In this document: one piece after another, positions 993 through 33,402 of the stretch
Layout: the number at the start of each line of letters is the position of its first letter
Position numbering within the stretch: position 1 is the stretch's first letter
Virus record (IMG/VR): IMGVR_UViG_3300032294_003279
Coordinates: 1-39,541 of that record
Strand: one strand, 5' to 3'
DNA from: a virus
DNA: 39,541 bases
The notes under the pieces: model-generated
Database searches by the model: none
What the model was told of the DNA's origin: nothing
What the model saw: the letters and a program-made list of their open reading frames with translations, nothing else
Program-made: the position numbers and the translations under genes

Positions 993-1002
993 TGTCAAGA
1001 TT
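993..1002. promoter_or_regulatory. TGTCAAGATT motif, copy 1
   Basis: This exact 10-mer lies in the 51-base gap between two minus-strand genes. Read on the minus strand it contains TTGACA, a perfect -35 hexamer, with AT-rich candidate -10 sequence 15 to 17 bases further on (TAAACT or AACTTA). The same 10-mer recurs at 29325, 29532 and 29554. It could be a promoter element, an operator overlapping a promoter, or both. Confidence 0.4.
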
Positions 1003-4773: not shown

Positions 4774-4801
4774 AGGTTAGTGTTTGCCGTTTTTCTGTCA
4801 A
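4774..4801 (-). promoter_or_regulatory. Candidate promoter of the RCC1 protein gene
   Basis: In the 48-base gap upstream of the RCC1 gene, the minus strand reads TTGACA (4801 to 4796), a 16-base spacer and TAACCT (4779 to 4774). The plus-strand sequence TGTCAAGACC is a two-mismatch relative of the repeated TGTCAAGATT motif. The -35 is perfect and the -10 is poor, so this is tentative. Confidence 0.35.
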
Positions 4802-6451: not shown

Positions 6452-7735
6452 CTAGACCAGTGCGGTAATTTGTCCGGCAGAAAAGGCCGGACCCTGGATC
6501 TGAAGCTGGCTTCTGGCCCCTCCCCGCATTTCGGCCAGCTCTTTTTGCAAAAGCGCCACGGCCTTACTTTCATAAAACGCCGCCTTTTCCGGCTCTTTTT
6601 CCCGGAGGGCGACGACCATTTCCTTGATCGCCGGGTAGTTCCGAATGTCCATTTTATCGTGGTCGCGGTGCTTCGCCTTCCAGCGCTTTTTATAGAGAAT
6701 GTGAATGCACTCTGGGGCGTACCCGCTTCTTAAAAAATACTTCCGTCTCCACTCTCCGGCGACAAAGGCCTCGCCGCGGTCGACTAGCGTATCGTAACCG
6801 CTCGTCCCTTTTTCCTGGTACCCAGGTCCGTTTTCATGGAAGTCGTATCTCCGGTCAAAAAGCGAGACAGGTTTGTTGGCCATGTCGACGGCCAGGACAG
6901 TTCCCACAATGGAAGGAAGGTGAATTTCGTTGGTGTTGGTCACCCCGATTTTGCAGCTATCCACCGTCCCGTACCAGCACCCACGGGCAAACAGGGCTTC
7001 CTCGGCATTGTTGATAAGGTCGACCAACTCGGCGTCGGAAACCCGAAGACCGTCCATAAGGTCCAGGGCGAGTTTTGCACGCATGTCCCCAAGGCTGTTG
7101 GGGATCGTGCTGGCCTTTTTGGTCTGGTAGTTGACGCGACGGGCCGCCTCGATGGCCCGGTCGGTCTTGACCGTCAGACGCTCGATGGCCTTGTTCTCCA
7201 GCGCCTGGGCCATTTCAAACTGGTTGTTCTCTTCCCGGTACAAAGCCAAAATCATCAATTTCAGGGCGTCGATGTCGTCAATAATCAAAAGGTTGTTGTC
7301 AGAAATAGCCGGAACATAATTTAATTTCCCGGTCACTTCCACCCTGGCCGGGGAGGAACCTTCGATGGCGTAGGTCCGGAAGTCGGAAGAAGTCGGGACA
7401 AAGTTAAGAGGAAGCACATCCCCGGTGTCAGTGAGAAAAGCTTGGACTCCGTTGGTCAAAAAACCAGCTGCCGCTGTGGTGCTGGCGACACGCGTCGCGC
7501 TTTCCAAGCCGAATCCTGAAATCGTGGTGATGTCTCCGGTGGAAGCCGGGAGAGTAAACTGCCCGTTGGTTACGGCGACCGAATACCTTGCTAAAACGCC
7601 AAGCCAGGCGCGGACGCTGTGGAGTCTTCGCTGGGCCTCGTTGATGCGGGCCACAACTCGGGAGTCGGTCGAGCAGACTCCGTTGTCTACATACGGAGAA
7701 AGCGCCGTCTTCGCCTCGAGCAAGGTAAGTGGCAT
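6452..7735 (-). CDS. Internally duplicated neck/adaptor-like virion protein
   Basis: This 427-residue protein appears to consist of two related halves. The first (about 5-200) starts DNGVCSTDSRVVARINEAQR, followed by an aromatic stretch, TNGQFTLPASTGD, and later LNYVPAI and IDALKLMILALYREE. The second (about 215-415) starts DGLRVSDAELVDLINNAEEA, followed by GCWYGTV, TNTNEIHLPSIVG, and later NYPAIKEMVVALREKEPEK. Both end in a helix of the type AxALExKAIERL or ESKAVALLQKEL. Helix-strand units with an N-terminal D-(8 to 10)-LINxAxxxL pattern are usual in phage head-completion and tail-adaptor proteins. Its place near the nozzle-like 800-aa protein fits that role in a podovirus neck. The assignment is by pattern and context; no single family is certain. 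The start ATG overlaps the upstream stop (TAATG). Confidence 0.7.
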   Translation of the reverse strand: MPLTLLEAKTALSPYVDNGVCSTDSRVVARINEAQRRLHSVRAWLGVLARYSVAVTNGQFTLPASTGDITTISGFGLESATRVASTTAAAGFLTNGVQAFLTDTGDVLPLNFVPTSSDFRTYAIEGSSPARVEVTGKLNYVPAISDNNLLIIDDIDALKLMILALYREENNQFEMAQALENKAIERLTVKTDRAIEAARRVNYQTKKASTIPNSLGDMRAKLALDLMDGLRVSDAELVDLINNAEEALFARGCWYGTVDSCKIGVTNTNEIHLPSIVGTVLAVDMANKPVSLFDRRYDFHENGPGYQEKGTSGYDTLVDRGEAFVAGEWRRKYFLRSGYAPECIHILYKKRWKAKHRDHDKMDIRNYPAIKEMVVALREKEPEKAAFYESKAVALLQKELAEMRGGARSQLQIQGPAFSAGQITALV

Positions 7736-8101: not shown

Positions 8102-8857
8102 TCAGTATTTTATAACCCAATTCAAAAACACAAGAGGGGGCAGGTTGGGATGGGGCTGAGCGGAGGAATCCGACGTCGCGTCCGACACAAAACCGTAGTT
8201 CCAGGTTAGGGTAAATGAACTGCCAGGCCAACGACTGGAACTCCCACCATCTCCGCCATTTCCGCGGTTCCCGTCCTCGTAACTCCCTCCCCAGCTAACG
8301 GAAACGTCATGGGTATGAGTGTGCTGGTTGAGGCCGGACTCTTGCGGGGAAAGCGTGTGGTTTTCAAGACCACCAACAGCCCCCATACTCGAACCGTTTA
8401 CGCCATTGGTGGTCGAGGCGGTAAGCCGACCGGAAGAGTTTAAACCGCCCATCAACTCAAACCCCGCAACTGTCCTTCCTCGTAAGTCGGGCAAGTTAAA
8501 AGTAGTCCGACCATTTCCAAGGCCGTAAGTAATGTTAATTGCGCTAAACAAATCAGCATAGTCCCGCCTACTAACTTCTTGGCCGTTGCAAAGAAGCCAT
8601 CCGTCAGGGGGCTGCTGGGACGGAAATGGGAATATGGCTCCGGGAAGGTAAAACTTTAGCGTACCCGATCTGGACAAATACAAGGGATCGGTGGTGACGC
8701 TACTACCACCGACAACCCTGGTCACGGTCCCGGTGGTCGTTACGTTGGCTTGAAGGGTGGAAAGCGAAAGTTGTTGCGTTTGGCCTTGGGGGGAGACCAA
8801 CGGAAAAGTTAGACCGAAGGTTGCATTAGTTACTTCGGGGAGTTCGCTTATTTTCAT
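8102..8857 (-). CDS. Phage tail-collar protein, copy 3 of a tandem set
   Basis: I choose ATG 8857 because it overlaps the upstream stop as ATGA; a longer in-frame start at 8974 would run deep into that gene. The 251-residue product has three parts. Residues 1-40 (MKISELPEVTNATFGLTFPL) match a common phage attachment segment. The middle holds a tail-collar domain: GWLLCNGQEVSRRDYADLF, then ITYGLGNGRTTFNLPDLRGR. The last third contains an HTHTHD metal-binding-like run and a variable Gly/Ser-rich loop, ending in HPNLPPLVFLNWVIKY. In T4 gp12-type proteins the collar domain and the His-x-His motifs, which bind metal, form the receptor-binding tip. Copies 1 and 2 upstream share the architecture but have a different variable centre, so this looks like a set of alternative or heteromeric tip proteins. 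Confidence 0.88.
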   Translation of the reverse strand: MKISELPEVTNATFGLTFPLVSPQGQTQQLSLSTLQANVTTTGTVTRVVGGSSVTTDPLYLSRSGTLKFYLPGAIFPFPSQQPPDGWLLCNGQEVSRRDYADLFSAINITYGLGNGRTTFNLPDLRGRTVAGFELMGGLNSSGRLTASTTNGVNGSSMGAVGGLENHTLSPQESGLNQHTHTHDVSVSWGGSYEDGNRGNGGDGGSSSRWPGSSFTLTWNYGFVSDATSDSSAQPHPNLPPLVFLNWVIKY

Positions 8858-9612
8858 GTTTTGATAATCCAATTGAGCAAAAGAAATGGCGGCAGGTTGG
8901 GGTGAGGCTGGGTTGCCGGCACAGAGCCTGAGTTTGTAGACGGCTGGATATCTAGAGTCAGTTCTGTGGAACAATCACCGGCATTAGTATTAAAATTCCG
9001 TCTTGGCCTTCCGGTATTCCTACTTAAGTTGTTCCCAGTCCTGTCCGGACCTGTTGGGACAGAAAACGATGACGAGACTTGGTGCGTATGTCCTACCAAC
9101 GGTGTTTGGGAATCAGACAAAACATGCTCTATTTCACCGGTAACTGAACCTAAAGAGGTGGCTCCGGCAACGCTAACGCGACCCGAAGCCGTAACCCCCA
9201 TGTCGTCGAGCCCAAAAACAGCCCTGCCAATGAGGTTGGGGATACTAAAGTTAGTCCCGGTTCCTCCGTAAGTGTACCCAATAGTGTTGAATAAGGCCTG
9301 GTATTGGGAAACGGCTAGCGACCTCCCGTTGCAAATAAGCCACCCGGTCGGGTCTTGTTCACCGGCAAAAAGGGACATTAAGCCTGGGGAAGAAAAAGAA
9401 ACCGTCCCGGTGGTGGTGATGGGGGTCGGGTCGGAAACAAGCCCTTGCCCGGCGGTTACAGACCTAACAGTTCCATCTCCTAAGAATTGTTTAATTTGCA
9501 GAACCGAGACCTGTTTGGTTACGCCGGATTGGACGCAAGGTAGGAACGAATCAAGTGTCGGGGGTTGAGCCAATTCGGACGTCCGTAAATCTGTAATTTT
9601 AAAAATTGCCAT
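8854..9612 (-). CDS. Phage tail-collar protein, copy 2 of a tandem set
   Basis: This 252-residue protein has an N-terminal attachment segment (FKITDLRTSELAQPPTLDSF), a linker, RSVTAGQGLVSDPTPITTTG, and a collar domain: GWLICNGRSLAVSQYQALF, then YTYGGTGTNFSIPNLIGRA. The variable part includes the single GHTHQV motif, and the C-terminus (HPNLPPFLLLNWIIKT) is nearly the same as in copy 3. It starts at ATG 9612, 1 base after the stop of copy 1, and overlaps copy 3 by 4 bases, so the three are translationally linked. The role is inferred from the collar family: receptor-binding or tip-stabilising protein of the tail. Its variable segment (about 170-225) is Ser/Thr/Asn-rich and is not shared with its neighbours. 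Confidence 0.88.
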   Translation of the reverse strand: MAIFKITDLRTSELAQPPTLDSFLPCVQSGVTKQVSVLQIKQFLGDGTVRSVTAGQGLVSDPTPITTTGTVSFSSPGLMSLFAGEQDPTGWLICNGRSLAVSQYQALFNTIGYTYGGTGTNFSIPNLIGRAVFGLDDMGVTASGRVSVAGATSLGSVTGEIEHVLSDSQTPLVGHTHQVSSSFSVPTGPDRTGNNLSRNTGRPRRNFNTNAGDCSTELTLDIQPSTNSGSVPATQPHPNLPPFLLLNWIIKT

Positions 9613-9613
9613 A

Positions 9614-10393
9614 TTATGCCTTTATAAGATATTTAAGGACAAGGCATGGCGGCACATTATTGTGCGGAAGAGCGGCATTTGCGCCGGGTAATGAAGAGGT
9701 TGTCGGGGTTGAAGCCGAGGACGTGTAGCTCCCTGCCCCGACCTCGCCTAACTGACCGTAATCGCTGTAACATTCTGGCGGGGGAACATCTGGGTCATCC
9801 CAACAAGCAGTGTCATTACACCCGCCGTACACGACCATAGTTCCGCTAGCTGTATGCGTATGTGCACGGACAGCAGACTGTGCTGCTGTAAGCAAATGGT
9901 CCTGAGCTCCCCCCGTAGCCCCAAGAGTCAAATAATCGCCGGAAGCAAAAGTCGCTCCGTTTAGGGGACTGGCTTGCTGGTTGTTCTGCGCTGCGCCGAA
10001 AGGAATCCTGCCGCGAAGGTCAGGGACTTTAAAATCCTGGTTGGTATCAAAACCGTATCTTGTGCCGATAACACCAAAAAGATCCGGAAACACCGACCTG
10101 GGGACAGTTTGACCGTTGCAGTATAGCCAGCCGTCGGGTGGCTCCACCGCAAGGCCGGCATAAGGAATGACCATGCCGGGAAGATGAAACGAGACGGCGA
10201 TGGTTTGGGGAGAACCGCTGACAGAAACCTGGAGGTTTGTGCCGGCGTTGATTTGGGAAACTGTCCCGCGAGTCACAAGATCCAGGACGTTGTTTAAGGC
10301 GGTCTTGCGGGTGATGCCCCCGATCAAGACGGGAACCCAGGCGGTTTCGTCCAGCGTTGAAGCCTGCGGGAGGTCTGAGATCCTGGTGGCCAT
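9614..10393 (-). CDS. Phage tail-collar protein, copy 1 of a tandem set
   Basis: This 259-residue protein begins with ATRISDLPQASTLDETAWVP, the clearest form of the attachment segment shared by all three copies (I-S-D-L-P, then a V-P-V strand and a T-R-K-T helix). The collar domain follows: GWLYCNGQTVPRSVFPDLF, then GTRYGFDTNQDFKVPDLRGR. An RAHTHTASG motif starts the variable part, which here holds a Cys- and acid-rich loop (GGCNDTACWDDPDVPPPEC) that could form disulfides or bind metal. It ends PHNNVPPCLVLKYLIKA. ATG 10393 overlaps the previous stop (TAATG). Of the three copies this is the most divergent in the centre, while N-terminal and C-terminal anchors are kept. Confidence 0.87.
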   Translation of the reverse strand: MATRISDLPQASTLDETAWVPVLIGGITRKTALNNVLDLVTRGTVSQINAGTNLQVSVSGSPQTIAVSFHLPGMVIPYAGLAVEPPDGWLYCNGQTVPRSVFPDLFGVIGTRYGFDTNQDFKVPDLRGRIPFGAAQNNQQASPLNGATFASGDYLTLGATGGAQDHLLTAAQSAVRAHTHTASGTMVVYGGCNDTACWDDPDVPPPECYSDYGQLGEVGAGSYTSSASTPTTSSLPGANAALPHNNVPPCLVLKYLIKA

Positions 10394-17252: not shown

Positions 17253-19049
17253 TTACCCAAGAGCAATAATGTCGGCGGGTATGGCGGTTTTCTTGAGCTT
17301 TTCTCCGACGGACCCAGCAACGCTCGAGGCCGACGAAAGGGCATAGTCCCAAACATTAGCCTGGGTCAAAACTGCGGTGCCGACGGTGTTGTCGACCGCC
17401 ACGCCTGCGGCCACGGAGTTTGCGGCTGGGACGGCACAGGTTCCAGTAAGGTTGCCTGCGTTGTAGGTGACCCCGGAGCGGACGTCTGTGACGGCTGGGG
17501 GAGTGACAACGGAAGATGGGTTAACGAGGGTGACTGCGTTCCCGGAGACATCCCTAAAAATAACAACGCTGTTCGGTTGGAGGTTGATTCGGCACTCGTT
17601 ACCGACTGGGGCTTGACCTCTCAGACCAAACTCAAGTTCTTGCACCGTAATTGTAGAACCTTGAACACCAGCTGCGCCTACGGTGGAGATTAACCCAACA
17701 GACCCTGTCCCCCATGCGTTGCCAACGGCTCTTCTTATGTAGGCAAAAGATGAAGCGGCCCCAATCCTTACCCCTTCAGACTGGCTTCCACTTCCGGCGA
17801 TAGCTGAACCATTAAGAGTTAAGGTTGAGCCAGAAGATATCGTAAGATAGCCTTGATTTTGAACACCGTTAAATGGCCCTCCAGTACAATTCCCATTTAT
17901 GACTGTCGTATTAGCCCCTTGGACGTAAAAACCAGGTTGGTTCCCTGTACCGGTAGAAGGAGCTGACACATTCCCATTGACAGTAAATGTTCCGCTAGTC
18001 CTGTTGTGTTGAACAATAGACCCTAATCCACCCGTAGCAAAGATATCCCCATTAAGTGTAACCGATTGGTTGCCTGAGCCTGACGTAGTTAAAAGAGATC
18101 CGGGGCCTGTTCTTTGTAAAGAACCATGAATAACCAAAGACCCAGAACCATCGTGTGTAACAGTGGTCCCGCTAGCAGAGCCTACAGTCCCATTGTTAAA
18201 CCCAAAATTTATAATTCCGTTAACAGTCCCAGATAAAGCCAGAAGACCACCATTTCCGGTTCCGGTATGGACAAAACTACCTGAAAGTTGACAGGAGCCG
18301 CTCCCAGAAGAAGCTATACATCTTGAACCAGAAGCCCCTTGGTAACGACAAATTCCGTTTACCGTAACATTTGTGTTCTGCGCTTCAATTGCGCCGTTGT
18401 TTTGAGTTGTGGTTGGGTCTGTGCTTACTTCTCCAGTTACGTTGAGTGTACCACCAGTCGAGCTGACTCCAGGGCAATAGATGGCTTTTCCGGCAATAAC
18501 ATTACCCGTAATATTAACTGTTCCTCCTGCCATAGATATTGCCGGAGTATTCCCGCCTATTGCGAGTTGGGTGCCGACCACATTTCCGTTAATGTTAATG
18601 ATACCCGTAGAAGCTTGGCGGAGACCATGCCTATTAGCCGCAGATCCGGACCCGGCAGTAACATTTCCGTTCACAGTCAATGTGCCTGAGTTACTTACTA
18701 GTACAGTGTAAAGTGTGCTTGTGGTTCCCTGCGTAGCCCCAAAAATATTTCCGTTAATGGTCGAGCTTCCTGGGGAGGCGTAGTTAACAGAAACAGTCGT
18801 GCCTCCGGTAGCCGCGGACCCAGAATAAACATCTGCGGTTAAGGAGATACCAGAATTAAGCACAAAACCACCGCCAGCATTGATACCTGTGGCAGATTCG
18901 GTCCGTATGCTTAAAACTGTTACGTTTTGATCAAGCGTAACAGTAAAATTGTTAGCAAAAACATCGTCGGCCGACGTGGGCAAAGTCCCGCCATCCCAGG
19001 TCGCCGTGGCCGACCAGTTTCCGTTTGCGACTGCCCAGCGATTAGCCAT
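17253..19049 (-). CDS. Beta-helix virion protein, 598 aa
   Basis: The N-terminus (ANRWAVANGNWSATATWDGG, then LPTSADDVFANNFTVTLDQN) is a common phage head/tail accessory motif with W-N/D-G-G-x-x-P-x-x-x-D-D-V. From about residue 60 to 470 there are many repeats of about 20-30 residues containing x-V-N-G-N-V or x-I-N-G-N-x. Examples are TLTVNGNVTAGSGSAANRHG, IININGNVV, NITGNVIAGKAIYC, VTLNGDIFATGG and TVNGNVSAPSTG, which predict a right-handed beta-helix. The end, with VWDYALSSASSVAGSVGEKL, is a short C-terminal motif found in several phage surface proteins. It lies next to the capsid gene and may be a head-attached or tail-spike appendage. No hydrolase site is evident. Confidence 0.75.
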   Translation of the reverse strand: MANRWAVANGNWSATATWDGGTLPTSADDVFANNFTVTLDQNVTVLSIRTESATGINAGGGFVLNSGISLTADVYSGSAATGGTTVSVNYASPGSSTINGNIFGATQGTTSTLYTVLVSNSGTLTVNGNVTAGSGSAANRHGLRQASTGIININGNVVGTQLAIGGNTPAISMAGGTVNITGNVIAGKAIYCPGVSSTGGTLNVTGEVSTDPTTTQNNGAIEAQNTNVTVNGICRYQGASGSRCIASSGSGSCQLSGSFVHTGTGNGGLLALSGTVNGIINFGFNNGTVGSASGTTVTHDGSGSLVIHGSLQRTGPGSLLTTSGSGNQSVTLNGDIFATGGLGSIVQHNRTSGTFTVNGNVSAPSTGTGNQPGFYVQGANTTVINGNCTGGPFNGVQNQGYLTISSGSTLTLNGSAIAGSGSQSEGVRIGAASSFAYIRRAVGNAWGTGSVGLISTVGAAGVQGSTITVQELEFGLRGQAPVGNECRINLQPNSVVIFRDVSGNAVTLVNPSSVVTPPAVTDVRSGVTYNAGNLTGTCAVPAANSVAAGVAVDNTVGTAVLTQANVWDYALSSASSVAGSVGEKLKKTAIPADIIALG

Positions 19050-25004: not shown

Positions 25005-25292
25005 CTATTCCTCCTGCTTGGCCTCGCTCCAGGGTTCTGGAAGCGGGGCTTGGGGTTTCTTGATCTCCTTCAGCGCCTCGATGTTTCTTAAAGCGTCATA
25101 ATAGCCCTCACGCCTTGCGTTCATTAGGGCGTTGTATTGGATGGAGTCGACCCCGGCGGGAACTCTCGCCTCGATCGGGAGAGCAACATCCTTTAAGACC
25201 TCGAACCCGGCCTTCAAGGCATCGTCGGTTTCCCAAAGCTTTTTCCATTGAATCTGCAAATCTTCGCGTTTGGCCCAGTCTGTGATTTTCAT
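25005..25292 (-). CDS. Small head assembly-region protein, 95 aa
   Basis: This 95-residue protein lies between portal and scaffold. Its first part (ITDWAKREDLQIQWKKLWET) is helical and aromatic, followed by DDALKAGFEVLKDVALPIEA, then YNALMNARREGYYDALRNIE. The end is acidic. Small helical proteins at this place occur in many podoviruses and assist head assembly, but I do not recognise a named family. An AGTCAA/TTGACT hexamer lies just upstream (25311-25316), too near the ATG to be a normal promoter. Confidence 0.65.
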   Translation of the reverse strand: MKITDWAKREDLQIQWKKLWETDDALKAGFEVLKDVALPIEARVPAGVDSIQYNALMNARREGYYDALRNIEALKEIKKPQAPLPEPWSEAKQEE

Positions 25293-25322
25293 ATTCGTAT
25301 GACTCTATTTAGTCAAGACGCT

Positions 25323-27533
25323 TTACGCAAGGCTATTCTGACGGATCTTCTGGGCGGCCTCGGCATCGCGGATGGCCATCCTCTGCTGCGTGTCGGCGAT
25401 CTTGAGCTGCTGGTCGAGCTTTGCGTTCTGCATTTTGATCTGGGCCTCAACCTGGGCTTTCTGTAAGGCCATCGCAGTCTTTGGATCGACCCCGCCTCCC
25501 TGCCCGCCTTGCATCGCCTGGGCCTGGGCTGCGCGACGAGCCTCGGCTTCCATTTGCTTGCCAATGTTCTCGATAGCCTCCCGCATGAGATTAAGAACTT
25601 CCCGGGCAGCCCCCACTTCTTGCTTACGCATAGGATCGCCGGCAAGCTGCTCGAGATGGGCGGTGCTGTGGGGGTATTGGAGTTGGAGGTAACCCATCGC
25701 AACCCTCGGGTCGACCTGGTTTTGCTGAAGCGCCTGGAGAAAGCGCATCGCATCTTCGAGATGAACCTTGGCGTGAACTGCGTGATTCTCGCCGGGGTTA
25801 ACGCTGACCCCGCGTCCGCCCTGCATGGTGCTGTTCTCAAGCTCCGCAATCTTAGCATCGACAGGGATACGCTCCTGCTCGGTTTTGGGGAGGTAACGGT
25901 CGACTTGGTCGTAACCGACCCTGGCCGCCACGCGGTCACGAATCAGATTGCGCTGACCGATTTCGTCAAACCTGGGGAGAATCTGCAAGAACTCGTTAAA
26001 GGCCAAGATGCGGGCTCCGGGGCTTCCGGCTCCCACGGCACGGACGGCATTGACCCGGTAGACCTTCTGGACGGCCTCCCAAGGAACGCCTCGGGCTTCC
26101 AGCCGCTTACGGAAATCAAGGGCCTCCCGGCCACCCGGCTCGTCCGATCGGTATTTGACGGTGGAAAGCCGGCGAAACATTTCGGAAAGGAGTTTCTGCC
26201 AGGGCGTGTAATAAAGGTTCATAGCCTGGGTCCCCAGGATCGACTGCTGGGCAAGCTGAGCCTGGACTTCGGTGGCGGTCCTGGCATCGCCTTCGGGCAT
26301 CACCTGCTTCTGGTTGTAGGTCCCGGTGTTGTTTTGCCGGACAACTTCCAAATCACGGACGATCGGAAGAACGTTGCCGGCGAGATTGGGCATGGCCTTG
26401 TCGACCACGTTGATGCCGGGAGGAAGCACGGACAGCGGTCCGTTGTACATCAAGGTCAGATTGCTGACGTCCTCCCCGGTCGCAGGCTGGATCATCAGGG
26501 CGGAGGAAAGCATCGCGCCGTCGACGACGGCGTTGCGAAGGCGGTTGGACAGCTGGACAAAGGGGAAAAGCTTGTACCCAAGCCCGCGGACAGAATGTAA
26601 AAGTCCGTTGGTGCCAATCCCGTAAGCGAAAAGGCAGAACGCCTCGTTGGCGTGTTTGAATCGGCTTGGCTTCTTGAAAAGAAAATCGCTCTCACTTCCC
26701 GCCCTGGTTCCGATGTAGTGAGAAATGGTTCCGTCAAACTCTTTCACAAAATAGTGAACGCAACGGACTACTTTGGAGCGGGCATGGGAATACGTGAGAT
26801 CGTTGTTCTTAAGTTCCTCCTGGAGTTTCTCCCAATCGCGGCCTGTCGCTTTGTCTGTCTCGGAAGCGAGAAGGATGGTCTTGCGGGTCTCTTCAACATT
26901 CCAACCAAGCTCTTTGGCGACCTTGGGATTTTCGATAAAGCCGTACAACTCTCCGACTAAAAAATTTCTCTCGATGACCGCAATATCAAATTTGGAGTCT
27001 GAGGCCGGGGTTCCCCGCGGTACCTTGAAATCCTTGAGTCCACAAACATTCCACTGCCAGTTGCGGTTATCTTCGAAATAGGTAAAGCCGACGCCGTACG
27101 CAACAAACTGGTGGGAAAGAAGCTGTTGCTTGTAGAAAAACTCATCCCAGTCCGTGACGGTGCGATGAAACTCTTCCGAGATAATCTGCTCCCACTCCAC
27201 CCGCTCGGACGGATCGCCAAACGAGGTTTTGACCTGGGCAAGCTGAGGGACGGAGTTAACCAAATCAGAGTACGCGGAAAGCGATGTTTCCAAAGCTGCT
27301 GCCGCCTCACCAAAATTAAGGTTGGCGCGATACCCCTGGCCAAGGGCCTTTAACTGGCTGGGGGAATACGGGGGCTCCCCGTCCAACATCGACTGAATTT
27401 TTTGCCGATCGATGGCCGCAGCGTCGTCAGCCTGGCGCATCGCCATGTAAATGGCATGTGCGCTTTTAGAGTCCTTAATCCTTGTCTTGGGGGCTTTTCC
27501 GGACTCGGAGATTGTTTCGAGTTCGATTGACAC
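25323..27533 (-). CDS. Portal protein
   Basis: This 736-residue protein is probably the portal, the dodecamer at the head vertex through which DNA enters and leaves. The size fits podovirus (P22/T7-type) portals. Signs are the N-terminal helical region, the segment WDEFFYKQQLLSHQFVAYGV, then GFTYFEDNRNWQWNVCGLKD, a long central domain with NRLRNAVVDGAMLSSALMIQ, a large C-terminal helical part (LNLMREAIENIGKQMEAEAR), and a Gln/Ala-rich tail (VEAQIKMQNAKLDQQLKIAD). The position right after large terminase is standard. It starts with GTG at 27533; the Shine-Dalgarno is weak, so translation may depend on coupling. The terminase stop is 32 bases away, and a TCTTGACG sequence overlaps that stop. 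A plus-strand frame of 363 residues here is a shadow. Confidence 0.85.
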   Translation of the reverse strand: MSIELETISESGKAPKTRIKDSKSAHAIYMAMRQADDAAAIDRQKIQSMLDGEPPYSPSQLKALGQGYRANLNFGEAAAALETSLSAYSDLVNSVPQLAQVKTSFGDPSERVEWEQIISEEFHRTVTDWDEFFYKQQLLSHQFVAYGVGFTYFEDNRNWQWNVCGLKDFKVPRGTPASDSKFDIAVIERNFLVGELYGFIENPKVAKELGWNVEETRKTILLASETDKATGRDWEKLQEELKNNDLTYSHARSKVVRCVHYFVKEFDGTISHYIGTRAGSESDFLFKKPSRFKHANEAFCLFAYGIGTNGLLHSVRGLGYKLFPFVQLSNRLRNAVVDGAMLSSALMIQPATGEDVSNLTLMYNGPLSVLPPGINVVDKAMPNLAGNVLPIVRDLEVVRQNNTGTYNQKQVMPEGDARTATEVQAQLAQQSILGTQAMNLYYTPWQKLLSEMFRRLSTVKYRSDEPGGREALDFRKRLEARGVPWEAVQKVYRVNAVRAVGAGSPGARILAFNEFLQILPRFDEIGQRNLIRDRVAARVGYDQVDRYLPKTEQERIPVDAKIAELENSTMQGGRGVSVNPGENHAVHAKVHLEDAMRFLQALQQNQVDPRVAMGYLQLQYPHSTAHLEQLAGDPMRKQEVGAAREVLNLMREAIENIGKQMEAEARRAAQAQAMQGGQGGGVDPKTAMALQKAQVEAQIKMQNAKLDQQLKIADTQQRMAIRDAEAAQKIRQNSLA

Positions 27534-27565: not shown

Positions 27566-29299
27566 TCAAGAGACACCCCAACTTGCCCCCAAAAGCTGCC
27601 GGTCCTGGTACGAAGCCACGTCCAATTTGCGGGCTTGCTTAAGCCAGTCCTTGCCACGGTTGGCCGCCAGCTTGCCCCCAGACACGGCCCCAAGGCGTTG
27701 CCGGCAAAGGTCGACCAAAAGACAGGCCGCATCCGCTAAGTCGGGGGACTTCCCCATCCTGGCCTTCATGTCCTTCTTGGGTTCCACGACCAGCTTCCCC
27801 CCGGACATGGTGCTGTATTTTCGAGAAGTAAGCTCTCGAGCCAGTTCCGGGGTGATTCCCTTAAGCTGGTTGCCACGGAGAAACTCCACCCCCACCCACC
27901 AAAGCTCGCTGACCCGGTTGCTGAACTTTTCGTTGCCCTTGATCGGGGAAACCACGCTTAACGGAAGCTCTGTGGGTTTTTCGCCGAACTTCACCCGGAA
28001 GATCCGGTTGCTCCAGGTCTCGCTTAAAATGTCGCAAAACGGATCGCCGGCTCCGGTGGCGTCAATCGCCAGATGCTCGGGCTTAATGCCCTCCCTTTCG
28101 CAAATTTCACGGACCATCCTGGCAATTTGAAAGTTTCTCGGCTCATTGGCCTTCGTGGCGTCTTCCCGCAGAATGTGAGCTTTCTCAAAACAAATGGTGG
28201 TCAGGCCCAGGTCGCTCTTGCCGTAACTGCCGACGTAAAGAACCGACCTGTCCCCGCCGTTGGTAAACGCCGGGTCAAAACCAGCCACCCGTGTCGGCTG
28301 CCCGTCCCACTTGGGCAAAGCCTCTCCTTCGAATTTCCGGATGTCGGCCTCGCTGTAAATGTTCTGCTCAGCGCCAACGGGCGCAGGGAACGACCGGATA
28401 AACCGCCAGTAGGAAAGACTATTTTCCCCTTGAAACTCCCTGGCTTCCCGCAGTTGCCGGGAAGTTAACAAAAACGGCCACTGGTCATCGGCATCGAGGT
28501 TGGGCGTTCTCTCGCCGTCCAGGTGGACACAGTAGCCACGGGAGGTCTCCCAGCCGTCCATATCGGCGTTGACGCTGTTCCAGGTATTGGTCGGAGTGAT
28601 GAACTGGCCGAATGGGTCGTAGGCGGAGGCAAAGTTACCGAGAGCGATGCACTGGAAGAACGGATTGGAGTCCAGGTTGTGGATGGCCTCGAAGATCGCC
28701 GGGGAGACGTCCGTGGCCTCGTCGACCAAAAGGAGCACCCGCTTGTTCTTTAGCCCGATCAGCTTCTCGGTTGCTTCCTTTTCCTTGTCCTTGGCCGACG
28801 GGATCAGGGTGATGGAAGACCGGTCGCTACCGGCCTCGTCCAGAATCAGCTTTCCCATCGAATCGACAATCCGGCCAGGTAAGCCCGGGATCTGCAAATG
28901 CCGTTCCCGGATCACACCCCACATCCGCTTTCTGGCCTCTCGGACGGATGTCGTGGTAACCAGGACAAGGGTGTTGAAGGGGTCGCAAAGCCAATTGACC
29001 AATCCCCAGATCCCGATGCAGTGGGTCTTGCTGGAAGACTTGGGCCCGGAGATCCCAAGGTAATTCCATTTGCAGGCTTCCTCGAAAATCCGCTCGGCCC
29101 AGGGGTTCCACTGAAAGCCGTTTTTGTTCTTCTTGGCGTCGTAGGGCCAAAGGAGCTCCACTACCCGCCTGAAATGCCCGTATTTCCCAAGGCCTCCAAC
29201 CTCCGGGCCGTAGTTTTCCCGGAATCCCATTAGCTCAATCGTGACCTCGGTGGTGCCAATTGGCCAAATCCGCCCGTATTTTTCAAAGCCTTCAGCCAT
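27566..29299 (-). CDS. Terminase large subunit
   Basis: This 577-residue DNA-packaging motor protein has a clear ATPase and nuclease. Walker A is GISGPKSSSKT (82-92) and Walker B with catalytic Glu is LLLVDEATDVS (189-199). The C-terminal RNase H-like nuclease has acidic residues in GFDPAF (D342), AIDATGAGD (D413) and SPDLADAA (D520, D523). It pumps DNA into the prohead at the portal and cuts the concatemer. The usual small subunit was not identified next to it; the control region lies upstream instead, and none of the small proteins in the window is clearly a small terminase. It is the first gene of the left arm, preceded by tandem TGTCAAGATT-type motifs at 29325-29345. Confidence 0.93.
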   Translation of the reverse strand: MAEGFEKYGRIWPIGTTEVTIELMGFRENYGPEVGGLGKYGHFRRVVELLWPYDAKKNKNGFQWNPWAERIFEEACKWNYLGISGPKSSSKTHCIGIWGLVNWLCDPFNTLVLVTTTSVREARKRMWGVIRERHLQIPGLPGRIVDSMGKLILDEAGSDRSSITLIPSAKDKEKEATEKLIGLKNKRVLLLVDEATDVSPAIFEAIHNLDSNPFFQCIALGNFASAYDPFGQFITPTNTWNSVNADMDGWETSRGYCVHLDGERTPNLDADDQWPFLLTSRQLREAREFQGENSLSYWRFIRSFPAPVGAEQNIYSEADIRKFEGEALPKWDGQPTRVAGFDPAFTNGGDRSVLYVGSYGKSDLGLTTICFEKAHILREDATKANEPRNFQIARMVREICEREGIKPEHLAIDATGAGDPFCDILSETWSNRIFRVKFGEKPTELPLSVVSPIKGNEKFSNRVSELWWVGVEFLRGNQLKGITPELARELTSRKYSTMSGGKLVVEPKKDMKARMGKSPDLADAACLLVDLCRQRLGAVSGGKLAANRGKDWLKQARKLDVASYQDRQLLGASWGVS

Positions 29300-29324
29300 A
29301 ACCCAATGGGAAAACCATAGGATT

Positions 29325-29345
29325 TGTCAAGATTCCGTCAAGATT
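29325..29345. repeat. Tandem TGTCAAGATT-type motifs, left side
   Basis: TGTCAAGATT (29325-29334) and CGTCAAGATT (29336-29345) are spaced 11 bases apart, one helical turn. On the minus strand they give TTGACA and TTGACG, -35-like hexamers upstream of the terminase gene; TTGACG with a 16-base spacer is followed by TATGGT. This looks like an operator overlapping a promoter for the late arm. Confidence 0.55.
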
Positions 29346-29523
29346 TTTTGGTCGATTTCTATAATTTGTTGATCTTTAACTACTTCCCAAAGCTGCACAT
29401 TGAGCTAACGACCCGTCCATGTAAGTCACTAACTTCCAACTATTTCCATTAACTCCTTCAGTTAGAGTAAATTACCTGTGCAACCTGGGAAATGCAATCG
29501 GCAACAATAAGCAAAGATTTCTG

Positions 29524-29552
29524 TTGACTCATGTCAAGATTGTCAAGATACT
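29524..29552 (+). promoter_or_regulatory. Candidate integrase promoter
   Basis: On the plus strand TTGACT (29524-29529), a 17-base spacer and GATACT (29547-29552) make a good sigma-70-like promoter 20 bases upstream of the integrase ATG. The spacer and -10 overlap two copies of the TGTCAAGATT-type motif, so a protein bound there would block transcription. Confidence 0.5.
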
Positions 29553-29563
29553 GTGTCAAGATT
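29532..29563. repeat. Triple TGTCAAGAT repeat before the integrase
   Basis: Three copies of TGTCAAGAT lie at 29532, 29541 and 29554, spaced 9 and 13 bases. The first two are back to back. They cover the spacer and -10 of the candidate integrase promoter and reach to 8 bases before the ATG. Together with the pair at 29325-29345 and the copy at 993, this is the clearest repeated control element in the window. Confidence 0.65.
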
Positions 29564-29571
29564 CTAACACC

Positions 29572-30798
29572 ATGAAACCGATTATTATTCAGAAGGGCTG
29601 GGCCAAGGTCAGAATTTACGAGTGCCCTCTTCGTCGGGGAGACGAGGAATACATGACCTACATCATCTCCTGGTACATCGGGAAAAAGCGCATGCGCCGG
29701 GGCATGGCATCGCTCGAACTGGCCAAACGCGAGGCCAAGGCAATTGCCGAACAATTGGCCGACGGCTCAGCCACGACCACCGAGATCACGCAGAAAGAAC
29801 TCCAGTACTACCGCCAGTGCGAAAACATGCTCAACGGCGTCCCGCTGGACCGGGTGGTTCGTTCCTGGGTCGAGCAGAATCCCAAGGAGGTCAAACAGGT
29901 CAGACTCAAGGAGCTGGTCGAAGAGTTTCTCAAGCGCAACGATGCCGACCCCAACCTTTCGAAATCGCAAAAGCTGACCATACGGCATCACCTGACCAGG
30001 TTCTCGGAAAGGATGAACCGCCCGATCTCCGTCATCACCCCCAAGGACATCGACGAATATCTCGATGACCCCCAGTACGCCCCAAGGACACGGCACAATC
30101 ACCGTGCGTCCATTATCGTCCTCTTCAATTACGCCAGACGCAAAGGCTACTTGATGGAAGACAAGCGGCACGCAGCCGAGAAATCCGAAGAAATCCGTTT
30201 CAAGCGTCCCGACGTGGAGATCTATTCCCCAGAACAGGCCGAGGCCATGTTGCAACTGGCCGAATCCAAGCTCATCCCGGCCTTGGCTATTGGCCTCTTT
30301 TCGGGCGTTCGCACCGCCGAGTTATGCCGGCTTAGCTGGGAGGACATTGATTGGGTCGGGGGTAACATCCGTTTGGACCGAAACATCACCAAGACCAACC
30401 AATCCCGTCTTGTTCCCCTCCTCCCGAATCTTGCCGAGTGGCTTGCTCCGTACAAAGGCAAGAAGGGGAATATCATGGCCTCGATGGGAACCAAGGAGCC
30501 GACCCGCTTTATCAGCCCTTGGCTCACCAAGACAGACAACCCCAAGCTCCCGCAGAAGTGGATCGATAACGGAATGCGTCACAGTTTTGCTTCTTACTAT
30601 CTTGCCTATACGCAAGACGCGGCCAGGACAGCCCTGGCCTGCGGACACTCGGTAAGCATGTTGATGGGCACTTATAAAACGGTGTCTCTCAACGGGGTGT
30701 CCATAACCCAGGAGGTGGCCAAGCGATATTTTGAGATCCGCCCGGTGGCGGCAGAAAATATCGTCCCAATCAGGCATGCCAAATCAAAGAAAGCCTAA
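29572..30798 (+). CDS. Tyrosine recombinase (phage integrase)
   Basis: From ATG 29572 the 408-residue protein has a SAM-like N-terminal core-binding domain (about 105-190) and a C-terminal catalytic domain. Catalytic residues are Arg in FSGVRTAEL (R247), Lys in ITKTNQSRLVP (K274), Arg in DNGMRHSFASY (R336, followed by H337), His in CGHS (H359) and the nucleophile Tyr in MGTYKTV (Y368). The first position of the usual H-x-x-R motif is Asn (N333) here, a tolerated change in some integrases. RHSFASY and the later EVAKRYFEIRP are typical of a group I associate with Verrucomicrobia, but I cannot test this. A TTG 48 bases upstream is in frame but lies in the repeats and is not the start. The enzyme inserts and removes the phage genome, so the phage is likely temperate. 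Confidence 0.92.
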   Translation: MKPIIIQKGWAKVRIYECPLRRGDEEYMTYIISWYIGKKRMRRGMASLELAKREAKAIAEQLADGSATTTEITQKELQYYRQCENMLNGVPLDRVVRSWVEQNPKEVKQVRLKELVEEFLKRNDADPNLSKSQKLTIRHHLTRFSERMNRPISVITPKDIDEYLDDPQYAPRTRHNHRASIIVLFNYARRKGYLMEDKRHAAEKSEEIRFKRPDVEIYSPEQAEAMLQLAESKLIPALAIGLFSGVRTAELCRLSWEDIDWVGGNIRLDRNITKTNQSRLVPLLPNLAEWLAPYKGKKGNIMASMGTKEPTRFISPWLTKTDNPKLPQKWIDNGMRHSFASYYLAYTQDAARTALACGHSVSMLMGTYKTVSLNGVSITQEVAKRYFEIRPVAAENIVPIRHAKSKKA

Positions 30799-30949
30799 CC
30801 AGACCACGGCGACCTTCACCATACCCAAGCATCTTTTAACTTGGGTACAGTCGGAGGCTACGAAGCGGGGGCAATCGACCTCTGAGTATATTCGGGGTTT
30901 GCTCCTTAAACAGTGGGACAAAGCTTCCGAAACTAAAAAAGAAAAATAA
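30776..30949 (+). CDS. Small ribbon-helix-helix protein A, 57 aa
   Basis: The start ATG 30776 overlaps the integrase 3' end by 23 bases; a longer in-frame start at 30731 lies deeper in that gene. The 57-residue product has a disordered N-terminus, then a strand TATFTIPKH and two helices (LLTWVQSEATKRG, then STSEYIRGLLLKQWD), the order of a ribbon-helix-helix (Arc/CopG-type) DNA-binding fold. These proteins act as dimers or tetramers on short, closely spaced operators. It is a candidate for binding the TGTCAAGATT motifs upstream of the integrase. A second such protein is encoded 132 bases on. The end is Lys/Glu-rich. Confidence 0.75.
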   Translation: MPNQRKPNQTTATFTIPKHLLTWVQSEATKRGQSTSEYIRGLLLKQWDKASETKKEK

Positions 30950-31080
30950 TAGCCTAAAAGGGATAAGGTTTATTGCGGATTAGGTGGCGTATAATTGGCG
31001 CATTTGTTAAGTATAAGTAGCGTATTTATAAGTATTTACGCTCTTGCCAATAAATACTTGAGCTACTAAGATTCCCCCTT
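30950..31080 (+). promoter_or_regulatory. Early-arm control region with TATAAT box and inverted repeat
   Basis: TATAAT (30990-30995) is a perfect -10; the best -35 at 17 or 18 bases is weak (GGTTTA or GTTTAT). Downstream, AAGTA occurs three times, and AAGTATTTA (31030-31038) pairs perfectly with TAAATACTT (31051-31059) across 12 bases. This is a plausible operator or binding site for a repressor of the early genes. There is no T tract to make it a terminator. No open frame was seen here. Confidence 0.45.
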
Positions 31081-31260
31081 GTGAAAAGGGGATTCCACGA
31101 CAATAAAGCAGAAAAAACCAACCTGCTCCTCCCCAGTAAACTAAAAATCAGGACTCTGGACCAGGCGAGGAAGGAGGGCGTCTCAATGTCGCAACTCGTG
31201 CGAAAACTTTTGGAGAGCTATTTGGCGGAAGCGGCAAAAGCCGAAAAAATAAAAATGTAA
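31081..31260 (+). CDS. Small ribbon-helix-helix protein B, 59 aa
   Basis: A GTG-start frame of 59 codons plus stop fits a second ribbon-helix-helix protein. The strand is KTNLLLPSKL, then helix 1 RTLDQARKEG, then helix 2 SMSQLVRKLLESYLAE, and a Lys-rich end. It parallels protein A. The GTG at 31081 is the only upstream start in frame before a stop at 31051. There is no good Shine-Dalgarno; the start codon sits in the loop of a small inverted repeat (CCCCTT and AAGGGG, about 31075-31090). An ATG at 31186 is internal to the domain and would destroy the fold. Its length is below common gene-calling cut-offs, so it is easily missed. Likely a DNA-binding regulator; its target is unknown. Confidence 0.6.
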   Translation: MKRGFHDNKAEKTNLLLPSKLKIRTLDQARKEGVSMSQLVRKLLESYLAEAAKAEKIKM

Positions 31261-31320
31261 AAAAAAAGAAGAAATTACTTGCCATGTATGCGCTGACGCT
31301 TACACCTAGTCGCCTCTCAC

Positions 31321-31629
31321 ATGAGACTTACCCTCGAAACTAAGTCGGTTAGGATTTTTACCCAACCCAGCGGCCATTTGGCCGTGGAGCTGGAGCCCAT
31401 CGGAGAAGACGGTTGGCCGAAGGATCTTCCGAGTGAAAACATCTACACAATCTCCGAGCTAACCAAACGTCTCGGAGTTTCTCGTCGCACAATCTACAGC
31501 TATTTTCGTCGGCACCATAATCCCCTCCCCCACTCGAAAGCGGGGGGCCGTCCGCGTGTGACCGAATCGGATTTGATGTCCTGGCTCTCCAGGGAAAAGA
31601 CCAAAGCCAAGATCGTGAGCATCGTATGA
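31321..31629 (+). CDS. Helix-turn-helix protein, excisionase-like
   Basis: The 102-residue product has a beta-rich N-terminus (1-35) and a winged-helix/MerR-type helix-turn-helix: YTISELTKRLGVSRRTIYSY, then FRRHHNPLPHSKAGGRPRVT, then ESDLMSWLS. This pattern (sensor helix S-E-L-T-K-R-L-G-V-S-R-R-T-I-Y, followed by a wing and an anchoring helix) is the helix-turn-helix_17 type found in excisionases and phage regulators. It may be the Xis partner of the integrase or a repressor. It is encoded before the replication operon and on the same strand. No good Shine-Dalgarno lies before ATG 31321. Confidence 0.72.
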   Translation: MRLTLETKSVRIFTQPSGHLAVELEPIGEDGWPKDLPSENIYTISELTKRLGVSRRTIYSYFRRHHNPLPHSKAGGRPRVTESDLMSWLSREKTKAKIVSIV

Positions 31630-32133: not shown

Positions 32134-33402
32134 ATGGAACTGTATGACTGGCAGAAGGATTCGGCTGAGGCTCTTTTGGCGAGCCTGCGGGAGCACCATG
32201 TCGCAGCGGATTGGAGCGACACCGGCACCGGGAAGACGGCTAAGGCTGTCTGGGTTGCCAAGCAGTTGGGTAAGCCAGTCGCTATCATCTGCCCAAAAGC
32301 CGTAATCCCAGCCTGGAGGAACTGGTGCAAGGAAGCCGGAATTGAGCCGACCTTTATCCTCAACTACGAAAAGCTTCGGGCCGGCTCCACGCCATACGGA
32401 GACTTTGTTGGTGGGGCCTGGGTATGGTCACAGCCGATTGTATACGACCAACTCTTTATCTGGGACGAGGTCCACAAATGCAAAGGACCTAATTCTCTCA
32501 ACGGGAAGATGTTAATCGCCTCCCGCCCTTACTACACGCTTATGTTGTCGGCTACCTTCGCCTCAAACCCCCTCGACATGAAGGCCACCGGGTATGTCCT
32601 GGGCTTGCACAAATACGCGGATTTCTGGCCATGGTGCATCAAGAACGGGGTTAAGAAAGCCCCGTGGGGAGCCATGTCGTACTTTGGGGGGAAAAAGAGC
32701 CTGGCCGTGATCCACCAGGCCATGGCCCCTAAATCGAGCCGGGTCAAGATTCGTGAGCTGGGAGACAAATTCCCCGACAATGAGGTATTCGCGGAAGCCT
32801 ACGATTGTGGGGATGTTCAAGGCCTATACGACGATCTGGAGCGCAGATTGGCCGAGTTGGAAGTTAGCAAGGCGGCTGACAAGCCCCACCCGATGACGGA
32901 AATCCTGCGGGCAAGGCAGGAATCAGAATTGTTGAGGGTCCCGATCTTGGCGGACTTGACGGATTCATTGCTCGACGAGGGGAGGTCGGTGGTTATTTTT
33001 TGCAACTTTCGAAATTCTCTTGACGCGCTTTTGTCATTGTTTAGTAAATCCGGCTCAATGATCTGGGGAGGGCAATCTACCGAGGAGCGCGAGGAGATGA
33101 TTTCCGATTTTCAAAGCGACAAGACCAACGTGATGTTGTGCCAGGTCCAGAGCGGTGGCGTAGGTGTGTCCCTGCACGATGAGAACGGTGTTCGCCCTCG
33201 TAGTTCCCTCATCTGCCCGACCTATTCCGCCATCGACCTTAAGCAGGCTCTGGGCCGCATCCACCGGGCCGGGGCCAAGTCCAAGGCTGTGCAAAAAATA
33301 ATTTTCGCCGCCGGCTCCATTGAGGAGCAGGTGATGAAGAAAGTCAGAGCGAAACTGAAGAACATCGAAACCCTTAACGACGGAGACATCGAAACGATAT
33401 GA
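32134..33402 (+). CDS. SNF2/SF2-type DNA helicase or translocase
   Basis: This 422-residue protein has all major SF2 motifs. Q/I region YDWQKDSAEALLAS, Walker A SDTGTGKTAKA (about 29-37), DEVH box FIWDEVHKC (111-114), motif III MLSATF (138-142), and C-terminal motifs IFCNFRNS, VMLCQVQSGGVGVSL and QALGRIHRAGAKS (371-383). The Q-A-L-G-R-I-H-R-x-G form of motif VI is that of the SNF2/Swi2 group. Such phage proteins move along duplex DNA and may help replication, transcription or recombination. It lacks long insertions and N-terminal extensions. It sits between the RuvC-like and Cas4-like nucleases, which suggests joint action in DNA processing. Confidence 0.88.
   Translation: MELYDWQKDSAEALLASLREHHVAADWSDTGTGKTAKAVWVAKQLGKPVAIICPKAVIPAWRNWCKEAGIEPTFILNYEKLRAGSTPYGDFVGGAWVWSQPIVYDQLFIWDEVHKCKGPNSLNGKMLIASRPYYTLMLSATFASNPLDMKATGYVLGLHKYADFWPWCIKNGVKKAPWGAMSYFGGKKSLAVIHQAMAPKSSRVKIRELGDKFPDNEVFAEAYDCGDVQGLYDDLERRLAELEVSKAADKPHPMTEILRARQESELLRVPILADLTDSLLDEGRSVVIFCNFRNSLDALLSLFSKSGSMIWGGQSTEEREEMISDFQSDKTNVMLCQVQSGGVGVSLHDENGVRPRSSLICPTYSAIDLKQALGRIHRAGAKSKAVQKIIFAAGSIEEQVMKKVRAKLKNIETLNDGDIETI

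Follow-up and report, generated by a model that had tools for sequence, protein, structure and literature searches.

What is the short sequence repeated between the large terminase and integrase genes of this phage for, and which protein would bind it? The stretch of DNA analysed here (the window) spans 39,541 bases and is a virus record of IMG/VR. The gap in question, at 29300-29571, separates the large terminase gene (27566..29299, minus strand; phrog_2), the first gene of the leftward arm, from a tyrosine integrase gene (29572..30798, plus strand; PF00589 and phrog_1). The initial annotation read the repeat as the binding site of one regulator, possibly a ribbon-helix-helix (RHH) protein, that could control both arms.

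Copies of the repeat in the window

Scanning of the window recovered all four exact copies of the 10-mer TGTCAAGATT that had been listed, at 993, 29325, 29532 and 29554, each on the plus strand. One-mismatch copies are located at 29336 and 29541, in agreement with the earlier list, and at 32742, which that list lacked; the further variant named at 4796, TGTCAAGACC, has two mismatches and is weak. At one mismatch or fewer, the window holds seven matches compared to 2.0 expected (sd 1.4; maximum 6 in 100 shuffles). A weight matrix derived from sites across the phage family gave eight matches, six of which fall in the ~4.6% of the window that is intergenic. The motif is thus not as common inside genes as between them, and most of its copies are intergenic; the copy at 32742 sits inside a helicase gene.

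In the gap, the copies form a left array of two (29325..29334, TGTCAAGATT; 29336..29345, CGTCAAGATT) and a right array of three (29532..29541; 29541..29550, TGTCAAGATA; 29554..29563), all on the plus strand. The spacing is 11 bp in the left array, and 9 then 13 bp in the right array, so the proposed interval of one helical turn is true of the first pair only. The outlying single copy (993..1002, plus strand) supplies, in its complement, the -35 (TTGACA) of a predicted promoter of the gene 959-597, with the -10 TAAACT at 977-972.

Conservation of the arrays among relatives

A search with the integrase yielded six close relatives at 90-97% identity, and a search with the terminase yielded thirty-one loci, including a second, distant group with integrases 62-70% identical. 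Neither the integrase DNA nor the terminase protein had a match among 50,697 phage records; the best integrase protein matches, from Akkermansia phages, are ~25% identical, and a scan of genome contigs gave one distant match. The phage family concerned is uncultured and has no close isolates. In one relative (G002), the integrase frame is broken near its 3' end (L006 10001-11220), by a frameshift or a sequencing error.

Alignment of 13 attP regions from relatives whose integrases are 62-97% identical revealed that 28 of the 35 array columns are invariant, compared to 64 of 211 columns outside the arrays and core (Fisher p 5e-8, which is only a guide as the sequences are related). Repeat conservation therefore extends across the relatives, and GTCAAGA, invariant in all 13 at the left copy 29325..29334, is on this alignment the core of a conserved motif. 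Copies of GTCAAGA flank the same gap in every integrase-bearing (int+) relative with a contig covering both sides. Next to the terminase there are two of them, spaced by 11 bp, and next to the integrase two or three. Of the latter, the middle copy reads GTCAATA in the distant group, and the third is lost in a sub-group (L025, L027 and L038). The inner copies of the two arrays are 195-197 bp apart in all int+ relatives that span the gap.

Two predicted divergent promoters overlapped by the arrays

The predicted terminase promoter (29314..29341, minus strand) consists of a -35 TTGACG (29341-29336) and a -10 TATGGT (29319-29314) separated by 16 bp. The left copies form its -35 and fill its spacer, the complement of 29336..29345 giving TTGACG and the copy at 29325..29334 occupying the spacer. 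The pattern TTGAC(G/T)-16-TAnnnT is kept in 13 of 13 relatives, which bears out the claim that the repeat provides the -35 of a leftward promoter. On the other side, the predicted int promoter (29524..29552, plus strand) has a -35 TTGACT, a 17-bp spacer and a -10 GATACT. Of the right copies, the first fills the spacer, the second overlaps the -10, and the third lies directly 3' of the -10 and continues into the start region. That the motif covers the spacer and -10 of this promoter, as first noticed, holds in every relative aligned. The promoter layout, with a -35 of TTGAC or TTGC type, a spacer of 16-17 bp and a -10 of GATnnT or TAnnnT, is likewise found in 13 of 13; in the distant group, the hexamers are weaker and the layout is kept. 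If these promoter predictions are right, a protein bound to the repeats would keep RNA polymerase away from both the terminase and the int gene.

A probable attachment site between the arrays

Between the arrays lies a probable attP, which the initial annotation overlooked. In the window, its core reads GCTAACGACCCGTCCATGTAAGTCACTAAC, an imperfect inverted repeat whose left half (29398..29414, minus strand; GGGTCGTTAGCTCAATG) matches the 5' end of a tRNA-Lys gene by BLAST and ARAGORN. In plasmid records, GGGTCGTTAGCTCAATG matched tRNA-Lys(UUU) genes starting at the same base in Proteus and cyanobacterial records; of five loci taken, ARAGORN called a tRNA in all but one, where a disrupted gene has the same 5' sequence. 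In the right part of the core (29415..29430), bases 29416-29420 vary among near relatives and are presumed to be the overlap, followed by the conserved GTAAGTCACT; the phage side of the core comprises GTTAGTGACTTAC plus 6 bases. Most members of the distant group have GGGGTCATAGC(C/T)CAATTGG as the left half, and one member (L029) has the Lys-type half. Of the five matches taken for the former, four records gave tRNA-Ala(UGC) genes and one gave tRNA-Asn, each in register. These matches strongly suggest an attP directed at the 5' ends of tRNA genes, in which the variable block would be the overlap. A pattern scan for an integrated prophage with a tRNA junction returned only an unrelated phage tRNA cluster, and the core had no match in E. 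coli at the sensitivity used.

Repeated 9-11 bp sites are present on both arms around the core, in the window and in relatives. A separate family of inner repeats flanks the core at 29393-29402 (TGCACATTG, left) and 29478-29506 (TGTGCAA and GCAATCGGCAA, right); it differs between the two groups of relatives, and integrase arm sites or excisionase sites are possible identities. An IHF-like sequence at 29362-29374 occurs in the close group and is not conserved in the distant group, and was thus left out of the evidence.

A third promoter-like element, TTGCAT-17-TAATTT (29469..29497, minus strand), points toward the tRNA sequence. Its pattern TTGnnT-17-TAnnnT is found in 13 of 13 relatives, 54 bp from the tRNA start where measured; once the phage has integrated, the element would provide the tRNA with a promoter again. 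On a more speculative reading, to which we give a small chance, this promoter (29497-29469) would read through the core toward the terminase in the free phage and into the host tRNA once integrated. Integration would then itself be part of the switch, with the late genes unplugged, the tRNA promoter re-supplied, and the two remaining promoters held shut through the shared operator.

A cassette of putative DNA-binding proteins that accompanies the integrase

Three small genes follow the integrase on the plus strand. RHH1 (30776..30949) extends across the int stop codon and would therefore come under the int promoter as well; RHH2 (31081..31260) is found in the close group only. RHH1 and RHH2 are RHH-like by matches to RHH_1, RHH_5, CopG_antitoxin and the Arc-like phrog_582, all of which fall below curated cut-offs, with RHH2 matching the Arc-like repressor family. 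The third product (31321..31629), put forward together with these two for binding tests, is an HTH_17 excisionase-like protein rather than an RHH protein, and matches phrog_66 (excisionase and transcriptional regulator). The int, RHH1 and HTH genes make up a cassette that is present in int+ relatives and missing from relatives lacking the integrase (int-), RHH1 and the HTH gene occurring only with int. Relatives of RHH1 were absent from the phage collection, and among viral contigs were found in the same int+ phages only.

The N-terminal domain of the integrase is predicted to adopt a beta-beta-beta-alpha, arm-domain-like fold (structure model; pLDDT 85); a PDB fold search with this domain gave no significant match. 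In the distant group, two perfect palindromes, GGTGTTTAACACC, lie upstream of the HTH gene (L047/L091 of G004, ~6750-6830) and are likely operators of another regulator.

Motif copies at other promoters and arrays

Across 15 related contigs, 21 same-strand clusters of GTCAAG were counted, compared to a mean of 1.4 for permuted hexamers (next highest 11). Thirteen are the attP-flanking arrays; three, spaced by 8 bp in G003, G011 and G015, proved to be one orthologous coding artefact and were rejected as real arrays. The motif sites are not confined to attP, as copies occur at other promoters and in other arrays of int+ relatives, where the same site overlaps -35 or -10 elements, as it does in the window. 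In G001, a triple array with 11-bp steps precedes an early gene. In G002, G004 and G008, copies 36 bp apart lie at the -35 and just past the -10 of another early-gene promoter, with diverged sequence between them, and the orthologues in the int- G003 and G015 lack both that promoter and its motif. At the place of the window's copy at 993, AATCTTGACA...TAAACT is found in G004 and G014 and not in the int- G003 and G011. A pair of GTCAAGA copies lies at the 3' end of a small-terminase-like gene (terS) in three int+ phages and is absent from two int- phages; it is within coding sequence and has no recognisable promoter.

Overall, the int-RHH-HTH cassette is missing from int- relatives, as are nearly all of the arrays, so that sites and cassette appear gained and lost together, in a comparison that covers few lineages and includes one partial exception. 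This is the int- G009, in which the left pair persists in decayed form and one GTCAAGAC remains at the promoter downstream of the portal gene. The sites outside attP are few and in few lineages.

Several further features of these genomes were observed. A palindrome-like element, AACCCAATGGG(TT), at 29300-29310 in the window and at 17896 and 34984 in G001 and 25322 and 41575 in G002, adjoins both the terL-side and terS-side GTCAAGA arrays and hence both ends of the early region; the versions in G004 differ (AACTCAATTGG). The terS-like gene is 14-18 kb from the large terminase gene in G001, G002, G004, G003 and G015; the early region between them has the opposite orientation, and this holds whether or not the member carries int. 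Just 3' of the portal gene (window 25285-25325, minus strand), a late promoter TTGCxT-17-TAnnGT is present in all relatives examined, with TTGAC...GTCAA around its -10; similar elements are found in most members, including one int-. In addition, three consecutive similar genes at 8102-10393 (minus strand) are tail-collar-like with DGWLxCNGQ motifs, apparently through fibre-gene triplication.

Candidate operators of a lysogeny regulator

Our tentative preference, at close to an even chance, is that 29300-29571 is an attP combined with a divergent promoter hub, in which TGTCAAGATT is the operator of a protein of the int-RHH-HTH cassette, most likely RHH1. The gap would double as attachment site and promoter hub, with the core between the arrays and one promoter on each side, that of the large terminase reading leftward and that of int and RHH1 reading rightward. 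RHH1, co-transcribed with int, would bind TGTCAAGATT. On the left array, it would mask the terminase promoter over its -35 and spacer, and on the right array the int promoter from its spacer through the -10 to the start. In a lysogen, the structural genes would be kept silent and int and RHH1 itself limited, and motif copies at further promoters would extend the control of the regulator. One regulator for both arms is the most economical reading because the motif recurs at other promoters, and in that outline the original proposal stands, whereas its assignment to an RHH protein relies on sub-threshold matches. Against the operator reading are the 2+3 layout around the core, which is exactly arm-type-like (PMC3203893), the terS pair within coding sequence that has no recognisable promoter, the exception of G009, and the small number of sites and lineages outside attP.

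The repeats bracket a probable attP core that carries a tRNA 5' end, which makes integrase arm-type sites a serious rival and a close second. Accordingly, the P arm would carry two of the five copies and the P' arm three; Int would bridge these sites to the core during recombination and repress its own gene through the promoter overlap, and the sites at other promoters would be unrelated or minor. The fixed distance of the arrays from each other around the tRNA-derived core in all int+ relatives and the predicted N-terminal fold of Int agree with this. So do the five 10-bp arm sites of ICEMlSymR7A (PMC11963761), the 2+3 direct repeats of phage Pixie at a tRNA-Lys site (PMC3203893), and the known autoregulation of int via an overlapping att site (PMC2951348). 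As the sole role, arm-type sites were favoured at first and demoted once arrays turned up elsewhere in the relatives. Moreover, the copies coincide with -35 and -10 elements, one copy is lost in a sub-group that keeps Int, and the fold search left the arm-like domain without a significant match. We give arm binding by itself a lower but appreciable chance of explaining the repeats; the two roles could both apply. A dedicated regulator, RHH1 first, is favoured for two reasons: it accounts for the copies found at other promoters, and with a promoter on either side of attP, the operators of these promoters would bracket the core in any case.

Compared to RHH1, the HTH_17 protein is an improbable binder, whether through dual use of the sites or as the true regulator, in the manner of P2 Cox or RdfS, a directionality factor at attP and a transcriptional regulator elsewhere. 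It travels with int and matches phrog_66; winged-HTH directionality factors bind att sites and promoters, and the MerR-like BldC binds direct repeats (PMC11963761). However, the two groups of relatives share GTCAAGA but not the putative recognition helix of this protein; the inner repeats, which do differ, suit it better, and its own upstream region (30950-31320) has no motif copy.

There is little chance that no phage protein is involved and that the copies represent either a strong -35 (TTGACA) with its context or the box of a host regulator, such as a PhoB-type tandem repeat with an 11-bp period. The complement does supply TTGAC at the terminase promoter and at 993, and 7-bp repeats at an 11-bp period are similar in geometry to a Pho box. 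A coincidental -35 was ruled out by copies in spacers, on the -10 or past it, where a -35 makes no sense, and most arrays vanish along with the int cassette; a Pho box fits neither in sequence, which is not CTGTCAT, nor in orientation, the left array being reversed relative to its own promoter. Terminase (cos) sites were ruled out, as int- relatives lack the terS array.

Comparison with known systems

The L5 repressor consensus, GGTGGMTGTCAAG, contains TGTCAAG and overlaps a -35. Like the operators and stoperators of L5 and other Cluster A mycobacteriophages (PMC9283540), the motif is a short asymmetric site at promoters and elsewhere. It differs in its few sites, tandem arrays, mixed orientation and lack of a G-rich half; stoperators were rejected on the number and orientation of the sites, the L5 type having >20 oriented with transcription, and no homologue of the L5-type repressor was found here. 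As with the phage RHH repressors (Arc and relatives), very small RHH-like proteins are encoded beside short repeats about a helical turn apart, whereas here the motif is not palindromic, the assignment of RHH1 is sub-threshold and its binding is a prediction.

Pixie (PMC3203893), Cluster J (PMC3706429) and ICEMlSymR7A (PMC11963761) likewise combine a tyrosine integrase with an adjoining tRNA-related core that is flanked on either side by 10-bp direct repeats, arranged 2+3 in Pixie and as five sites in ICEMlSymR7A, and share with this phage the overlap with the int start region. Unlike in these arm-type attP systems, the motif here also occurs at other promoters of relatives, the repeats overlap the terminase promoter, the core corresponds to a tRNA gene's 5' end, and the attP is predicted from its sequence. 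In KplE1/HK620-type elements (PMC2951348), the att region overlaps the integrase promoter as it does here, so that an att-binding protein would repress int; here, the other flank also overlaps a late-gene promoter. The parts are of known kinds, and their combination is unusual.

Altogether, the choice of this phage between dormancy and multiplication looks, from its DNA, to be governed by a phage-encoded switch protein docking at the repeats. Within one integrase family, the tRNA-Lys and tRNA-Ala versions of the core suggest target switching by exchange of an acceptor-stem block, and the core match predicts where the host attB should be sought. A family of uncultured phages thereby gains a lysogeny-control region with a candidate operator, a probable attP core, predicted promoters and putative regulator genes, and unexplained intergenic repeats become testable parts.
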